NCBI GenBank assembly: GCA_947174825.1
Contig: CAMWKN010000171.1
Coordinates: 1 to 5,216 of the forward strand
Reading direction: 5' to 3'
DNA length: 5,216 bases
DNA from: an uncultured Clostridium sp.
GTDB lineage: Bacteria; Bacillota_A; Clostridia; Lachnospirales; Lachnospiraceae
Below, one piece after another: positions 1-5,216 of the stretch. How positions within the stretch are numbered: position 1 is the first letter of the stretch; every line of letters begins with the position of its first letter. The notes under the pieces are model-generated. The model did no database searches. It was not told the origin of the DNA and saw nothing but the letters and a program-made list of their open reading frames with translations. The position numbers and the translations under genes were made by a program.

Positions 1-1300
1 CCCGGATGTACTTCCCTGCGTATTCTGCCTCATCTGGAATTTCAAAATTCCTGTTAACTGCACTTGGAATGTCTGTATAATGGCTCCCATCCCCTGACTG
101 TTCCCACTGATAACTAACATTCGTTGCCGCTTCTCCCTCTTTTCCCAATGCCTGTGCCATTAATCCCGCACCAGTCTTCTTCTCCCCAATAATGGAAACC
201 TCCGTTACCGGAATGGATACAACATCAGAAACAAGCTGCCAATTCAATACCGGATATCCCTCATTAATACCAGCAGTGTCTTCACAAAAGCTTCCCTCGC
301 TTCCGGCTGCATTCAGATTTTGCAATAAACTGTCCTTGCCGGAAATTGTTTCATAACCGATACCACTTGGTGTACCACCCGGTGCAGATACAGCATCCGA
401 CGTGTTCTCTGCCAAATAATAGCAATTTGTAACCGTTGCACTGCTGAATCCACAAATACCATTTTTACTTGTTCCAATACTGTAACAATAGCTAATCGTC
501 CCTTTTGACTGTTGTCCGGCAATACCGCCGCTACGGGTTACCCCTGTAATATCACCAGTATTGTAACAACTGCTAATTACCACTGCGTTACTATTATAAC
601 CAAGGATTCCACCGGCATAAGAACCGCTTACCTCTGCCTGATTACAGCATCCAGTAATAATTGCACCTGGGGCATTTGTCACCGTACCGATCAATCCACC
701 GGCATATCCCTTGGTAGTTTTTCCCGTGGAAGAAACCGAACCACGCATGGAACAATTTCTGATGGCACCTCCATTTTGAAGTTTCCCGATAATTCCACCA
801 ACCACGTTGCTGGAACTCACATCCCCCTCCACTTTAAGGTTCTCTATGGTTCCAGTATTCACAACAGAAAACAATCCATAATTGGCACTGGTCGTATCAA
901 TTTTTAATCCAGACACAGTATGATTCTGCCCATTAAAATTTCCTGCATAGGCATCTGTCACATAGTTTACCATACTAATCGGTGTCCACGGATGATCTCC
1001 TAAATCAATATCTTCCGTCAGCACAGCATCTACTGCTACCAGACCTGTATCTGCAGCACCCAGGTCATTGACATATTCTGCAAACCAAGCAAGTTCTGCT
1101 GCCGTAGCAATCTGATAAACACCATCCACCTGCTCCGGTTCCTCCTTGGCTGATCCATCCCACGGCGTTACAGTAGCCCTTACCTTAACTTCTGTCGCTT
1201 CCACAGTTTCTGCCTTTGCCGCTATTGCGCCCGGTGTTGCTGGACAAATCGACACAATCATCGCTAATACCAGCATAAAAGCATATAGTCTTTTCTTCAT
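1..1300 (-). CDS. Secreted GLUG-repeat surface protein, 3' end cut by window edge
   Basis: I translated this frame by hand: 433 codons with no stop from the ATG at 1300 to the left edge, so the C-terminus is missing. Residues 1-30 are a signal peptide (MKKRLYAFML start, hydrophobic core, cleavage probably after AKA at 28-30). Residues 60-135 resemble the lead-in common before GLUG repeats (YQIATAAELAWFA, ADIDLG-like LTEDIDLG, FNGQNHTVSGL). About five GLUG-type repeats follow at 140-295, marked by VVGGIIG, YAGGLIG, YAGGILGYN and SGGIAG, each followed by an NC/SC/YC pair. Residues 360-433 look like a bacterial Ig-like domain (VSYQWEQSGDG, ending in AGKYIR). The product should be exported and displayed on the cell surface. 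The start is set by AAGGAG at 1313-1308, 7 bases upstream. It overlaps the stop of the upstream 94-residue gene as ATGA, so translation is probably coupled. A cobalamin-type riboswitch heads the transcript. Ligand and anchoring type are unknown; a role in corrinoid capture is inference. Confidence 0.9.
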   Translation of the reverse strand, partial: MKKRLYAFMLVLAMIVSICPATPGAIAAKAETVEATEVKVRATVTPWDGSAKEEPEQVDGVYQIATAAELAWFAEYVNDLGAADTGLVAVDAVLTEDIDLGDHPWTPISMVNYVTDAYAGNFNGQNHTVSGLKIDTTSANYGLFSVVNTGTIENLKVEGDVSSSNVVGGIIGKLQNGGAIRNCSMRGSVSSTGKTTKGYAGGLIGTVTNAPGAIITGCCNQAEVSGSYAGGILGYNSNAVVISSCYNTGDITGVTRSGGIAGQQSKGTISYCYSIGTSKNGICGFSSATVTNCYYLAENTSDAVSAPGGTPSGIGYETISGKDSLLQNLNAAGSEGSFCEDTAGINEGYPVLNWQLVSDVVSIPVTEVSIIGEKKTGAGLMAQALGKEGEAATNVSYQWEQSGDGSHYTDIPSAVNRNFEIPDEAEYAGKYIR

Positions 1301-1581
1301 TTGCTCTCTCCTTTTTCTTCTAAATGTTTTCTGGAATGTTCCCTTCGATATCGCATCTGGTTTTCCCTTGCACGTCGGCGTTTTTCTCTTTTTTTTGCAA
1401 TCCGTTCCATATTGATCGGCTTAACTCCTGCCATTTCCAGTGCCCTCGGCCATGGTCCAAAGAATGATTTAATCCGGCCGACCGTATCCTCATCAAAATC
1501 TGATTTTCTTGGCAGACGTTTTACCTCATCTGCTTTCTGCTGTAAACGACGAATACATTCTTTCCTTGTCAGTTTGCTCAT
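1297..1581 (-). CDS. Small basic protein with HNH-endonuclease-associated repeat
   Basis: A 94-residue protein. Residues 5-55 match the homing-endonuclease-associated repeat (HNH_repeat type): a helix with KxECIRRLQ, then LPRKSDF, a short helix ending in RIKSFFGPW, then RALEMAGVKP. This family is small and probably nucleic-acid binding, and it occurs as short stand-alone proteins in Clostridia. No HNH catalytic domain is present. Residues 57-94 are an extremely Arg/Lys/Glu-rich tail (for example KKREKRRRAR), probably a charged helix. The start is supported by AGGAAGG at 1590-1584 just upstream. It is the first gene after the riboswitch terminator, and its TGA overlaps the ATG of the surface protein, so the two genes form one coupled unit. 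Its role is unknown; binding of DNA or RNA is likely from composition and family, but the target cannot be seen. The close coupling argues that it is a real gene. Confidence 0.82.
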   Translation of the reverse strand: MSKLTRKECIRRLQQKADEVKRLPRKSDFDEDTVGRIKSFFGPWPRALEMAGVKPINMERIAKKREKRRRARENQMRYRREHSRKHLEEKGESK

Positions 1582-1623
1582 ATCCTTCCTCTTCTCTACT
1601 TGACGAGTACTTTACAATTCCAT

Positions 1624-1661
1624 AAAAAAAACACATCTCTACCTGAATCAGTAAAAATGTG
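1624..1661 (-). terminator. Intrinsic terminator of the riboswitch expression platform
   Basis: On the minus strand CACATTTTTAC (1661-1651) pairs with GTAGAGATGTG (1642-1632). This gives an 11-pair stem with two G-U pairs and an 8-base loop, followed at once by eight Ts (1631-1624). It lies between the cobalamin-type riboswitch and the first gene, 42 bases before that gene's ATG, so it is placed to stop transcription before the operon. The base of its left arm overlaps GTTGCAC (1665-1659), the partner of an upstream antiterminator strand. Confidence 0.82.
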
Positions 1662-1755
1662 CAACAAGATTTCTGTAAGCCAAAAAAGCCAAAAGAATGC
1701 ATCCATTCCTATGGTACTCACATCAAACGGTTGCACTCTTCCTTGCCCAAAAGTG
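1659..1755 (-). promoter_or_regulatory. Antiterminator / anti-antiterminator segment
   Basis: GTGCAAC at 1736-1730 is perfectly complementary to GTTGCAC at 1665-1659, which includes the first three bases of the terminator's left arm. Pairing them would open the base of the terminator stem. The same GTGCAAC can instead be partly sequestered in an upstream hairpin, where CACTTTT (1755-1749) pairs with AAGAGTG (1740-1734) around an 8-base loop. Between the two antiterminator strands, AGGAATG and CATTCTT can form a further 7-pair hairpin with a GATG loop. These mutually exclusive pairings are what a riboswitch acting by transcription attenuation needs. The overlap with the terminator is only 3 bases, so the exact switch is inferred. 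Confidence 0.55.
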
Positions 1756-1761
1756 TTTTTC

Positions 1762-1895
1762 GGGTTTATCCCAGATAACCCTGTCCTCCAGCAGGAATTC
1801 CGACTTTTACGGTAATGGTGGTTGCGACGGATTCTCACCGAACTTCCCCTTTAATGTCCTATGACAACACTGAAAGACAGATCCTATTCAATTCT
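1762..1895 (-). promoter_or_regulatory. Cobalamin (B12) type riboswitch aptamer
   Basis: The minus strand carries the cobalamin riboswitch core: TTAAAGGGGAAG (1853-1842), then CGGTGAGAATCCG (1840-1828). These match the consensus GGGAAnnnGGTGnnAnTCC. A divergent L5 region follows (AACCACCATTACCGTAA), then a B12-box-like AGTCGGAATTCCTGCT (1805-1790) against the usual AGCCAGGAGACCTGCC. The 5' AGGA (1885-1882, in ATAGGATC) can pair with TCCT (1796-1793) inside the box. This equals the usual AGGT/ACCT pairing with one compensated change. A P13-like hairpin follows (GGGTTAT 1781-1775 with ATAAACCC 1769-1762). In this class, adenosylcobalamin or methylcobalamin binding normally turns expression off. 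Downstream terminator and antiterminator elements support a transcriptional switch controlling the HNH-repeat protein and the surface protein. The core match is strong; the L5 and B12-box divergence leaves ligand preference open. Confidence 0.78.
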
Positions 1896-1900
1896 AAAAT

Positions 1901-1929
1901 ACCATATCATCATCTAAATCAATTGTCAA
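1901..1929 (-). promoter_or_regulatory. Sigma-A type promoter for the riboswitch operon
   Basis: A perfect -35 box TTGACA (1929-1924) is separated by 17 bases from a -10 box TATGGT (1906-1901). Transcription would start near 1894, right at the 5' edge of the riboswitch. The position relative to the aptamer is the main support, since the -10 matches only four of six consensus bases. Confidence 0.65.
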
Positions 1930-1961
1930 GATGATATTAGATAGTGTAATTTTTAGGGGAA

Positions 1962-2009
1962 TAAATGAAACAACCACAGAAAACATAATAAATCCATTGT
2001 TCTCTGTGG
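1962..2009 (-). terminator. Terminator of the sigma-factor operon
   Basis: On the minus strand CCACAGAGAACA (2009-1998) pairs with TGTTTTCTGTGG (1985-1974). The stem has 12 pairs, one of them G-U, with a 12-base loop and a T-rich tail TTGTTTCATTTATT (1975-1962). It lies 78 bases after the sigma gene stop and ahead of the next promoter. On the plus strand the same stem has one A-C mismatch but is followed by GTTTTATTTTTAT, so it could work in both directions. No plus-strand gene is seen. Nothing else is visible between 2010 and 2086. Confidence 0.75.
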
Positions 2010-2086
2010 CGTTTTATTTTTATATGTTTGCCAGAATCCTCTTGTCTTTATGATTTATCGGGCGTCAAAAGAAATTTACAGCTTTG

Positions 2087-2593
2087 TCAAATTTTAGAGC
2101 TTAACATAGATTTCAATTTTTCCTTACCCCGATAATAAATTACCTTGGCAGAATTCTCCGATATGTGCAGAATTTGTCCAATTTCCTGGAAAGATAGCTC
2201 AAAATAAACCCGATAAATCATCACATCCCGATATTTCTTCTTTAATCGCCTCATTGCTCTGCGCAACATATTCCGCTCTTCTCTGCTAAAAACCACCGCT
2301 TCTGGAGAATCTATGCTTCTGGATTCTTCTAATAATGGCTGCTCCCAGGGAATTTCCTTTGCTCTTTTAGAAAAATATTTATAGGAAACATTTTTGGCTA
2401 TCTGACAGATCCAGGTTTTTATACTACAGTCTCCCCGATAACGATGCAGGGATAGAAATACCTGAAAAAAGGTTTCCTGCGTCAATTCTTCCGCCAGAGA
2501 ATAATCTCCATGACTCCATTTCAGCAGAAAATACAGAATATCCATATAATAGCTTTCATATAATTGCGTAAAATCCTGTTCTATCTTATCCAT
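2087..2593 (-). CDS. ECF-type RNA polymerase sigma factor
   Basis: A 168-residue sigma-70 family protein of the extracytoplasmic function group, a usual length for the group. Region 2 spans about residues 7-77, with the region 2.1-2.3 pattern AEELTQETFFQVFLSLHRYRG and then WICQIAKNVSYKYF. Region 4 spans about 105-162, with LKKKYRDVMIYRVYFELSFQEIGQIL and a helix-turn-helix ending SENSAKVIYYRGKEKLK. It would bind core RNA polymerase and direct it to stress-type promoters. I place the start at 2593 rather than at an in-frame ATG at 2629. GGGAG (2605-2601) lies 7 bases upstream of 2593, while the 2629 start would overlap the upstream gene without a clear ribosome site. It sits 13 bases after the zinc finger-signal peptidase gene, so the two are cotranscribed. 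That neighbour is the likely anti-sigma factor. Which promoters it reads cannot be told from the window. Confidence 0.93.
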   Translation of the reverse strand: MDKIEQDFTQLYESYYMDILYFLLKWSHGDYSLAEELTQETFFQVFLSLHRYRGDCSIKTWICQIAKNVSYKYFSKRAKEIPWEQPLLEESRSIDSPEAVVFSREERNMLRRAMRRLKKKYRDVMIYRVYFELSFQEIGQILHISENSAKVIYYRGKEKLKSMLSSKI

Positions 2594-2600
2594 ATCACCA

Positions 2601-2605
2601 CTCCC
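2601..2605 (-). promoter_or_regulatory. Ribosome binding site fixing the sigma factor start
   Basis: GGGAG on the minus strand lies 7 bases before ATG 2593 and just beyond the TGA of the upstream gene (2609-2607). It favours 2593 over the upstream in-frame ATG at 2629. Confidence 0.7.
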
Positions 2606-2606
2606 A

Positions 2607-3398
2607 TCATTCTGCGGTATCTGAAACATAAGAGGATGACACTCCTAAATGCGGTACTTTTGAAGTCAAAAATTTTCCGATAATATCATTCCGATCCACA
2701 CAGCCTATATATCTGCTGTCATAAGATTTTTCATGATGATCTCCCAGGAAAAAATATTGATCCTCCGGAACAGTAATTCGATAATCTGACCCTTTTTTCC
2801 CATCTAATTCTGTTGCACTAATCCCCTCATAACGTTGATTGATCTCGCCATTTACCAATAAATGTCCGTCTGCGATTTCAATTTCATCTCCCGGAACTCC
2901 TACAATTCGGTATATATCGAGCCTTTTTTCTCCCACGTTTCCTATCCGTAGCAGCACTATATCTCCTCTTCTGGGAGCATGCATCAGATAAGAAATCTGG
3001 GAGATCAAACAATAATCTCCGTCCTGAACAGTAGGCGACATGCTATCCCCTTCCATATAAATGGTATGAAAACTCATTTGATAAATTAAAAATAAACTGA
3101 TGAATGCCACTATCCCAATACAGATATTACGTGCTTTCCTCTTTTTCAGCTTTTTGGACAATACCCGGAATTTTCCCCTCTCCTCTTGTTCCTGTACCGA
3201 TAATGGGACTTTTTTTGCCTCTCTGTTTTTTTCCTGCTGATACACTTTCGCAATAATCCTGTTTTTTTCCTGACAGGAGGGGCAATCCTCCAAATGTTCT
3301 TTTATAATATTCTCTGTATCTTCCCCAATACTGTGTTCCTGATACAATGGCAGCAATTCCTCCACCAGAGAACAAAAAGCATCTTGTTTCTTTTCCAT
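2607..3398 (-). CDS. Zinc finger-signal peptidase I fusion, putative anti-sigma factor
   Basis: A 263-residue membrane protein. Residues 9-42 form an anti-sigma type zinc finger (zf-HC2 like): Cys9, LLPLYQE, then HLEDCPSC with His35, Cys39 and Cys42. A charged linker ending in KKLKKRKAR precedes one membrane helix (about 92-108), so the N-terminus should be cytoplasmic. Residues 112-245 are a signal peptidase I (S26) domain outside the membrane: GDSMSPT with nucleophile Ser119, RRGDIVLL, RIVGVPGDEI, and box E GDHHEKSYDSR. The catalytic Lys that normally precedes RVIGxPGD is Tyr163 (codon TAC), and box E has GDHH instead of GDNR. Protease activity is therefore doubtful. An ECF sigma gene follows 13 bases later, so I infer sigma-factor sequestration by the zinc finger. 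GGAAGG (3410-3405) lies 6 bases before ATG 3398; ATG 3404 is possible and adds two residues. It could still be an active peptidase using another base. Confidence 0.88.
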   Translation of the reverse strand: MEKKQDAFCSLVEELLPLYQEHSIGEDTENIIKEHLEDCPSCQEKNRIIAKVYQQEKNREAKKVPLSVQEQEERGKFRVLSKKLKKRKARNICIGIVAFISLFLIYQMSFHTIYMEGDSMSPTVQDGDYCLISQISYLMHAPRRGDIVLLRIGNVGEKRLDIYRIVGVPGDEIEIADGHLLVNGEINQRYEGISATELDGKKGSDYRITVPEDQYFFLGDHHEKSYDSRYIGCVDRNDIIGKFLTSKVPHLGVSSSYVSDTAE

Positions 3399-3435
3399 AG
3401 TCATCCTTCCTTTCTAATCTAAATAATACAATAGT

Positions 3436-3488
3436 AAAAAAGCGTAAGCCCAGCGGCTTGCGCTGCAAGAAATCCTACGGATTTCTTG
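3436..3488 (-). terminator. Tandem perfect hairpins ending in a T run
   Basis: Two adjacent palindromes lie in the gap before the zinc finger-peptidase gene. The first is CAAGAAATCC/GGATTTCTTG (3466-3475 with 3479-3488, loop TAC), 10 pairs without mismatch. The second is AGCGTAAGCC/GGCTTGCGCT (3441-3450 with 3455-3464, loop CAGC), with T-G in plus-strand RNA or one C-A mismatch on the minus strand. Reading the minus strand, the second hairpin is followed by six Ts (3441-3436), so the pair may act as the main terminator of the ABC operon. It ends only 37 bases before the next start codon. That means the downstream operon starts in those 37 bases or is read through the hairpins. It may also be a copy of a dispersed palindromic repeat. 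Confidence 0.55.
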
Positions 3489-3532
3489 GTCGTGTACCAC
3501 TATGTTACAAGCAATTTCCTATATAGCAAATA

Positions 3533-3560
3533 AGAAGTAGCAGATGTCTCCGCTACTTCT
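3533..3560 (-). terminator. Hairpin downstream of the ABC operon, possible weak terminator
   Basis: AGAAGTAGC (3533-3541) and GCTACTTCT (3552-3560) form a perfect 9-pair stem, with two further inner pairs beyond a mismatch. On the minus strand it is followed by TTATTTGC, a short and interrupted T tract. It lies 82 bases after the ATPase stop codon. I see no gene in the gap 3405-3642 apart from these hairpins. Confidence 0.45.
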
Positions 3561-3642
3561 CTGTATGTGATCACAAGCTACGACTGGCACTCTACCGTAA
3601 CTATATATTAGTACTATCTGAAACAGAAAGGTTACAAAAATA

Positions 3643-4374
3643 TTAGATCATGCTCATAATCTGCTTCTTATAAGACAAAAATTCCTCCGTCAGAATAAAT
3701 TCTGAATCCCTGGGTTTCTCCCGTTCAATACAGATTTCTGCCCGAATTTTCCCCGGTTTCCCTGCCAGAACATAAATCCTGTCTGATAATAAGATCGCCT
3801 CATCCATATCATGAGTAATTAACAGCGTGGACAAATGAATCCTCTCCATCACAGACAAATACCACTCATGCATAGCACTTTTGGTCATGGTGTCTAGCGC
3901 ACTAAAAGGCTCATCTAAGAGAGCTACATCCCCAGAAAATAAATAAGTCCGAAGTAAGGCTGCCCTCTGCCGCATTCCTCCCGAAAGCTGGGAAGGGTAT
4001 TTTTCCTCATATCCCTCCAAGCCAAACTCTTTGAAATACTGTTTTGCCTCCTGCCTGGCGACCCGTTTCTTAACTTTTTTGATTTGTAAAGGCAAGGATA
4101 CATTATCCAGTACCGTCTTGTAAGGTAACAGCATATCTTTTTGCAGCATATAACTGATTTTCCCAGGCTTGCCGGTAATTTCCTCCCCTTCCAGACAGAC
4201 CGAACCGGTATCCGGAATCATCAAACCAGCAATAATATGGAACAAGGTGGTCTTACCCACACCACTGGCACCTAACAAACTAACCAGCTCCCCCTCTGCC
4301 AGATTAATCCGAATATCTTCCAATACCTTTTTGTCGCCAAAGGCGGCAGAGACTTCTTTCACTTCCAGTTTCAT
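3643..4374 (-). CDS. ABC transporter ATP-binding protein, NitT/TauT (ThiZ/SsuB-like) type
   Basis: A 243-residue nucleotide-binding subunit with all expected motifs, numbered from my start: Walker A GASGVGKTT (35-43), Q-loop Gln78 in MLQKDMLLPYKTVLDNV, signature LSGGM (130-134), Walker B VALLDEP (150-156), D-loop SALD (158-161) and switch His188 in LLITHDMDEA. ATP hydrolysis by the dimer would power import through a permease that is not in the window. The MLQKDMLLPY pattern and short length place it with importers of nitrate, sulfonate, taurine and pyrimidine precursors; the substrate cannot be read from it. I start at ATG 4374 because GGAG (4384-4381) lies 6 bases upstream. The in-frame ATG at 4386 has no properly spaced site and would add only MENR. 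The solute-binding protein gene ends 22 bases upstream, so the two are cotranscribed. Confidence 0.93.
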   Translation of the reverse strand: MKLEVKEVSAAFGDKKVLEDIRINLAEGELVSLLGASGVGKTTLFHIIAGLMIPDTGSVCLEGEEITGKPGKISYMLQKDMLLPYKTVLDNVSLPLQIKKVKKRVARQEAKQYFKEFGLEGYEEKYPSQLSGGMRQRAALLRTYLFSGDVALLDEPFSALDTMTKSAMHEWYLSVMERIHLSTLLITHDMDEAILLSDRIYVLAGKPGKIRAEICIEREKPRDSEFILTEEFLSYKKQIMSMI

Positions 4375-4380
4375 TCTGTT

Positions 4381-4384
4381 CTCC
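4381..4384 (-). promoter_or_regulatory. Ribosome binding site deciding the ATPase start
   Basis: GGAG on the minus strand is 6 bases before ATG 4374. It overlaps the alternative ATG at 4386-4384, which itself has only GATGGA directly against it. This supports the shorter protein. Confidence 0.55.
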
Positions 4385-4396
4385 ATTCCATCTGCT

Positions 4397-5216
4397 TTAC
4401 TTGGTTAAATAGGAATTATCAAAACCTGCATTTTCCGGGATATCCTGTTCTACCAGTTTTTTTTCATTTAACCAGGCATAATATGCATTCCAACGGTCTG
4501 CATCAATATATCCCCAGCGATCAGCCTCTGCCAGATATTGTTTACTGACATAATCCTGACTACGCTGTATCAGCTCCTCATCCAGTTCTGGTACCGCCTT
4601 TAACAAGATCTCTGCGGCATCCGACGGCTGGGCTGCCGCATATTCATACCCTTTCCTAACTGCGTCTATAAAAGCCTTTGCTACCTCCGGTTTCTCATGC
4701 AAAAAGGCATTATTACCGATAATAACCGGGCTGTAATAGTCAAAAATCGGATCCATATCTGCAAAAGCCAGATAATTGGTCTCTATGTTTTCCTGCTCTA
4801 ACTTGATACCATCCCAGCCATAATAGATCCATACGCTGTCTATGTCGGCATTTAAACCAGCAACAATATCTTCTACATAGGTGGAGATCAAGTTGACTTT
4901 TCCAAAATCTCCTCCATCCTCTTCTACTACGTTTTTCAGAACCGCCTGCTCAATAGGGGAATCCCATGTTGCATAGCTATGCCCCTCTAACTTCCCTGCA
5001 CGGTCAATTCCTTTCTCTTTCAAAGAAACCAAACCAGAGGTATTATGCTGCATTACTGCAGCAACTGCTGTAATTGGCAGGGGATTGTCACTGCCAAAAG
5101 CGGCGGCAAGGGTGTCCTGAAAGTCAATTCCAAACTGCGCTCCTCCAGAAGCCACCATATCTGTTGCACCACCATCTGGCGGCTGTACAATAGATACCTC
5201 CAGCCCAGCATCTGCA
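4397..5216 (-). CDS. ABC transporter solute-binding protein, NMT1/ThiY-like, 5' end missing
   Basis: The open frame continues to the right edge: 19 more codons precede the internal ATG at 5158 (ADAGLEVSIVQPPDGGATD). The window therefore holds the last 272 residues and lacks the signal peptide and N-terminal strand. The pattern IVQPPDGGATDMVASGGAQFGI, then ITAVAAVMQHNTSGLVSLKEKGI, then TWDSPIEQAVLKNVVEEDGGD, is the type II binding-protein fold of the NMT1/SsuA/ThiY group. Later segments (VWIYYGWDGI, FDYYSPVIIGNNAFLHEKPEVAKAFIDAVRKGYEYA, RWGYIDADRWNAYYAWL) are also usual. In Gram-positives such proteins are membrane-anchored lipoproteins that hand substrate to the permease. Aromatic residues (WIYYGW, FDYYSP) fit an aromatic or pyrimidine-like ligand, as in thiamine-precursor carriers. 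Sulfonates or other small molecules remain possible. The ATPase gene follows 22 bases downstream. Confidence 0.92.
   Translation of the reverse strand, partial: ADAGLEVSIVQPPDGGATDMVASGGAQFGIDFQDTLAAAFGSDNPLPITAVAAVMQHNTSGLVSLKEKGIDRAGKLEGHSYATWDSPIEQAVLKNVVEEDGGDFGKVNLISTYVEDIVAGLNADIDSVWIYYGWDGIKLEQENIETNYLAFADMDPIFDYYSPVIIGNNAFLHEKPEVAKAFIDAVRKGYEYAAAQPSDAAEILLKAVPELDEELIQRSQDYVSKQYLAEADRWGYIDADRWNAYYAWLNEKKLVEQDIPENAGFDNSYLTK

Follow-up and report, generated by a model that had tools for sequence, protein, structure and literature searches.

A predicted ZAS anti-sigma factor with a degenerate signal peptidase I fold as its putative outside sensor in an uncultured Clostridium sp.

The window analyzed here, a stretch of 5,216 nucleotides from an uncultured Clostridium sp. 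of the Lachnospiraceae (contig CAMWKN010000171.1, positions 1 to 5,216), carries on its minus strand a gene (2607..3398) for a predicted anti-sigma factor of 263 amino acids. All features with coordinates below lie on this minus strand. The protein is a fusion made of a ZAS zinc-binding domain, a linker helix, one transmembrane helix and a pseudo-S26 domain, which is a signal peptidase I fold without the catalytic lysine. The open reading frame (ORF) is open from 2607 to 3404, and the start at 3398 was preferred because of its better ribosome-site spacing (by eye); this start also agrees with homologues starting with MEKK. Pfam matched the protein with both zf-HC2 (E-value of 4.1e-7, 30.4 bits for a cut-off of 22.2) and Peptidase_S26 (2e-33, above the cut-off). 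The core of the ZAS/zf-HC2 domain covers residues 9-43 (3270..3374), with C9, H35, C39 and C42 as ligands. Hydropathy indicated a single hydrophobic segment, the transmembrane helix at residues 92-110 (3069..3125, positive side inside), and a helix covers residues 68-109. As this only hydrophobic segment is preceded by KKLKKRK, the zinc domain is expected inside and the S26 domain outside. Gram-positive signal peptidases have the same topology, their S26 domain being outside. The extracytoplasmic signal-peptidase-I fold extends over residues 110-246 (2661..3071) and the conserved GD..S.DSR residues are present, as is Ser119 at the S26 nucleophile position (3042..3044). The Ser-Lys dyad is nevertheless incomplete, with Tyr163 (2910..2912) replacing the general-base lysine. 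These features complicate naming: the window protein scores above the cut-off of TIGR02227, the curated model for signal peptidase I (121.8 for a cut-off of 47), and public records label its relative P0008, attributed to a Lachnospiraceae bacterium, as a signal peptidase I.

The stop codon of the fusion gene is followed, after 13 nucleotides, by a gene for an extracytoplasmic function (ECF) sigma factor of 168 amino acids (2087..2593). Its ATG at 2593 is preceded by GGGAG, and the alternative upstream ATG at 2629 would overlap the anti-sigma gene. Pfam matches to Sigma70_r2 and r4_2 indicate regions 2 and 4 without region 3, and the closest solved chain is SigW (2e-13). ZAS domains hold their sigma factor. 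DNA context was available for five loci, window included, among the 30 fusions gathered, and an ECF sigma gene adjoins the fusion in all five, which extends to homologues the linkage that an earlier note on this DNA had taken from the adjacent gene. The anti-sigma gene precedes the sigma gene in the window and in L122 (genome G1260), and the order is reversed in L099 (G991), L100 (G918) and L035/L101 (G170). Identity to the window sigma factor was 49% for L099, 48% for L100 and 27% for L035. The sigma genes were called with Pfam for the window and L035, by alignment for L099 and L100, and by eye for L122. The other genes around the pair vary from locus to locus.

The 30 fusions with the ZAS motif were gathered from three protein searches and from genome samples. 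Twenty-six came from the best 120 listed of 193, 864 and 434 matches, respectively, the last search having scored 7998 candidates, and were selected by the motif C-x(22-30)-H-x3-C-x2-C near the N-terminus. The first search alone provided 14 further full-length relatives (42-88% identity) among the matches listed. Four fusions were obtained from genomes: P0227, which belonged to an earlier set of 27, P0335, P0336 and P0337. Every other match listed in the protein searches (307 proteins) was treated as an ordinary homologue. For phylogeny, 44 ordinary rows were hand-picked for spread, namely 18 of these 307, including P0021 and P0027 which both lack the lysine, and 26 ORFs (two identical). All 26 fusions scanned matched zf-HC2 and Peptidase_S26 at E<=0.01, with P0121 slightly below the zf-HC2 cut-off (21.5 vs 22.2). 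Thus, the order of zinc finger, membrane helix and S26 domain read by the earlier note is upheld by Pfam, hydropathy and 30 fusions, and the 30 fusions and five loci rule out a chance joining of domains or a frameshift artefact. The zinc ligands (H-x3-C-x2-C and the upstream Cys), whose loss in relatives would have spoken against an anti-sigma domain, were retained in 30 of 30 fusions, 27 of which had been selected by that motif.

Such fusions appeared rare in the genome samples. They were found in one of 291 genomes of a class sample (E<=1e-35), one of 398 of a family sample (E<=1e-30) and one of 197 of an order sample, the genome being G170 each time. A second family sample had at least two genomes with a fusion out of 397, and its order had one out of 392 (E<=1e-48). 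In small genera, one of four, one of five and the only genome carried a fusion, each being the already known genome. These frequencies are lower bounds, with the best 6-8 candidates scored for many genomes of the samples of 291, 398, 397 and 392. At threshold, 29 genomes of the 197-genome order sample and 174 of the 397-genome family sample had matches; among those listed, beyond one and two full-length fusions, respectively, the others lacked the N-terminal region. Of these, G1110 (match from residue 24) was inspected and has no ZAS domain. A genome_contigs scan returned 32 loci, of which 27 gave an S26 ORF (all but L026-L028, L030 and L032), none of the 27 with the ZAS motif. An N-terminal-only match (G002:C58:3323-3607, profile 6-107, E 9.9e-10) lies in a 331-codon open frame, which probably encodes a further ZAS anti-sigma factor whose outside part is of another kind. 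A phage origin was rejected, one viral_contigs scan having returned no relative, and so was a plasmid relative, as 247 plasmid records matched, none covering at least 80% of the query.

The catalytic dyad separates the fusions from their ordinary homologues. In an alignment of all listed matches, the general-base lysine was present in 304 of the 307 ordinary proteins vs one of 27 fusions. With all 30 fusions, this position is occupied by Tyr (18), Val (8), Lys (3) or Cys (1), a loss in 27 cases, and the nucleophile position by Ser (24), Ala (4), His (1) or Gly (1), a loss in six. Meanwhile, the fold residues M120, R164, G219, D220, D227 and R229 are unchanged throughout. Further ordinary homologues without the lysine, a single ORF in L085 and another in L102, do not enter these counts. 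The second signal peptidase copy of L085 has Arg at this position, and L102 has two signal peptidase homologues, one with Ser at this position, flanking a GTPase gene that we take to be YlqF-like, next to a presumably ribonuclease-HII-like gene. Close pairs of signal peptidase homologues were also observed in 14 of the 28 loci L071-L098 (L071-L073, L075, L079-L081, L085, L088, L089, L091, L093, L096 and L098).

The cleft of the fusions has residues of its own. Cys130 (3009..3011) was found in 29 of 30 fusions vs none of the 307 ordinary homologues listed and one of the 44 ordinary tree rows (L076). Asp161 (2916..2918) was found in 24 of 30 vs none in either ordinary set, and it tracks the loss of the lysine (24 of 27 fusions without it, none of the three with it). 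By counting from Ser90 and Lys145 of LepB, we matched these residues to Ile101 and Tyr143, which form the S3 and S1 subsites, respectively, in the published model as given in the part of PMC2259416 available. The cleft floor is mostly hydrophobic, with M120 in all 30 fusions, I/V/L at position 124 in 28 and I/L/M at position 162 in all 30. When the window model was compared using VIA-align with candidates from Foldseek, the highest structural Z (18.2) was obtained with Streptococcus pyogenes SipA.

Upstream of the fusion gene, a predicted ECF promoter (TGTAACC-N16-TACTAA, 3608..3636) is common to the window, L099 and L100. The pattern was derived from these three loci, and the only independent test is L122, found afterwards, in which TGTAACT-N16-TACTAA (12 of 13 positions) stands 75 nt upstream of the anti-sigma gene. 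TGTAAC-N17-TACTAA is thereby common to four pairs. The window contains one exact match, and two sites with up to two mismatches vs 0.14 expected from shuffles. G991 and G918 each have a single exact site as well, located upstream of the pair. The anti-sigma factors of these four loci have differing dyads, with Tyr163 in the window and L122, no serine in L099 and an intact dyad in L100, suggesting that signalling is independent of catalysis. A wider regulon was rejected, since sites with at most one mismatch (counting the exact sites too) were no commoner than with a reversed-pattern control (13 vs 15 in G991, 3 vs 11 in G918 and 1 vs 5 in G170). Five of the 15 non-exact sites were inspected, and four of them fall within open frames that are 164-957 codons long. 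Between promoter and gene, the leader (3399-3607) folds well (z -4.5) and includes two terminator-like hairpins (3446..3561). The leader repeat had no match in 123 loci or viral_contigs.

Taken together, we consider it likely that the pair is an autoregulated ECF module in which the sensor is the signal-peptidase fold, catalysis being dispensable and usually lost. The cytoplasmic zinc-binding domain would hold the sigma factor, while the outside fold would serve as a receptor. A ligand might bind at or close to what was once the substrate cleft and change how accessible the anti-sigma factor is to site-1 and site-2 proteases. The anti-sigma factor would then be cut or rearranged, and the sigma factor, once freed, would transcribe its own operon and further targets. 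The earlier note had proposed the peptidase fold as the sensor, which it suggested might report on free signal peptides, secretion load or peptidase inhibitors. Degenerate catalysis, the kept fold and the family-specific cleft favour the fold as sensor; the note had overlooked that the domain is a pseudo-peptidase, and with the dyad loss the domain is better seen as a receptor derived from a peptidase than as a peptidase. As to the ligand, a signal peptide of an exported protein, a lipopeptide inhibitor or some other peptide close to the membrane is a tentative guess, somewhat less probable than the contrary. A little more doubtful still is a decoy by which some gut Clostridia would watch their own export machinery, in which the dead signal peptidase would compete at the membrane for signal peptides or lipopeptide inhibitors and a filled Cys/Asp cleft would free the sigma factor. 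If so, the different dyad replacements in different branches would mean that enzymes of this fold have become receptors repeatedly.

Several observations weigh against a receptor derived from a dead peptidase or against the autoregulated module. Two of the 30 fusions, P0234 and P0336, retain both Ser and Lys and, judging from these residues, could be active as peptidases. The three fusions with the lysine (P0234, P0335 and P0336) all lack Asp161, and P0336 lacks Cys130 as well. Furthermore, 18 of the 30 fusions belong to one fully supported clade, all with Tyr except one Cys, so the lysine losses counted do not each stand for a separate event. A second well-supported clade has nine fusions, all with Val except P0234 (Lys). 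P0335 and P0336 pair weakly (91/69; 96/9 in a later tree, beside an ordinary protein), and P0337, with Tyr, stands apart in the later tree. None of 200 bootstrap trees had all fusions as one clade, and the approximately unbiased (AU) test did not reject such a clade (p 0.217, 29 rows). With 134 columns and many forks open, the tree does not settle the number of lysine and serine losses; the split of Tyr and Val between clades, together with the Gly that P0335 has instead of the serine, suggests three or more. Regarding structure, the nearest solved chains by sequence are active peptidases, with SipA in fifth place when the window protein is compared and in tenth when the profile is, and SpsB superposes at a root-mean-square deviation of 2.1 over 123 residues vs 3.6 over 136 for SipA. 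In SipA itself, a cleft-occluding mutation left pilus assembly unaffected according to the part of PMC4049620 available, so a retained cleft need not be a working site. Regarding regulation, G170, which has the distant sigma factor, is without an exact promoter site, the pattern pointed to no target outside the operon in G991, G918 or G170, and simple autoregulation leaves the two hairpins between the window promoter and the gene unexplained.

Other explanations were weighed against a sensor with a signal-peptidase fold. The one that fares best, though we hold it to be unlikely, is that the S26 domain acts passively, as a stalk or a folding anchor, and that another protein, or the linker and membrane helix, senses. 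RsiP is controlled via a separate sensor, PbpP (PMC8844934, in part), and since the genes around the pair differ among loci, a partner could be encoded elsewhere. However, the cleft is under a family-specific constraint (Cys130 in 29, Asp161 in 24 and Met120 in 30 of 30 fusions), and such a distinct signature would not be expected to persist in a stalk. It is improbable that the S26 domain is still active, with an alternative general base or LexA/UmuD-like self-cleavage, and cuts itself or the anti-sigma stalk as the site-1 step, as the lysine and the serine were lost in 27 and six of 30 fusions by varied replacements (Y, V, C and A, H, G) while zinc ligands and fold residues stayed invariant. 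Equally improbable is that Cys130, nearly fixed in fusions, almost absent from ordinary homologues and lying in the outside domain of likely anaerobes (judging from P0008, named Lachnospiraceae), responds to redox conditions, to a metal or to thiol-reactive compounds instead of a peptide, for across 25 aligned fusions the outside domain has no other invariant Cys and no invariant His, and P0336 has no Cys130.

Two more genes lie on the promoter side of the pair. An ABC ATPase gene (3643-4386) and an NMT1-type binding protein gene (4397-5158), cut at the window end where the frames of relatives have about 350 codons, give the transcription order NMT1-type gene, ABC ATPase gene, fusion gene and ECF sigma gene on the minus strand. 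On the other side, a cobalamin riboswitch (1773-1889, 37 bits for a cut-off of 31.5) stands upstream of genes for a small HNH-repeat protein (1297-1581) and a GLUG-motif protein (2-1300), whose N-terminus resembles an export signal (by eye).

No description of a ZAS and signal-peptidase fusion was found among the titles and abstracts of the open-licence literature searched. In the parts of the sources available, PMC7406223 mentions signal peptidase in its reference list only and PMC8103513 has no mention of a peptidase. With the fusion, membrane anti-sigma factors would gain a new type of outside sensor, and non-catalytic signal peptidase folds an example with a role in signalling. Should the ligand of the fusion prove to be a signal peptide or an inhibitor, the fusion would offer a direct handle on how Gram-positives watch their signal peptidase activity, secretion management being called poorly understood in the part of PMC5727409 available.

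Compared with type I signal peptidases (SpsB, LepB, Sip), the fusion shares the fold, the membrane topology and the GD..S.DSR residues but has Tyr in place of the general-base lysine and an added anti-sigma domain. Like SipA, it has a signal peptidase fold with a lost dyad and a retained peptide cleft (PMC4049620, in part). SipA, however, has a role in pilus assembly and Asp and Gly at the dyad positions, where the window protein has Ser and Tyr, and the 5.2-kb window contains ECF sigma and ABC transporter genes instead of sortase or pilin neighbours. The AyrRA system of S. aureus, which responds to signal peptidase inhibition, may share the purpose of monitoring unprocessed signal peptides (PMC5727409, in part), but it is a regulator of another kind. 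Class I ZAS anti-sigma factors such as RsiW of the Bacillus subtilis SigW-RsiW pair also have an N-terminal H-x3-C-x2-C zinc domain and an adjoining ECF sigma gene; the fusion profile matches RsiW (E 0.0011), and the difference lies in the outside part, here a signal-peptidase fold. RsiV, the lysozyme receptor that controls SigV, uses its outside domain as a receptor, as proposed for the fusion, its ligand exposing the site-1 cut (PMC5014341, in part). Its outside part is DUF4163/DUF3298 and it is a signal peptidase substrate, whereas the putative sensor of the fusion has the signal peptidase fold itself. As the site-1 cuts of RsiV and RsiP are made by true signal peptidases in the available parts of PMC5014341 and PMC8844934, known systems already bring signal peptidases together with this kind of signalling.
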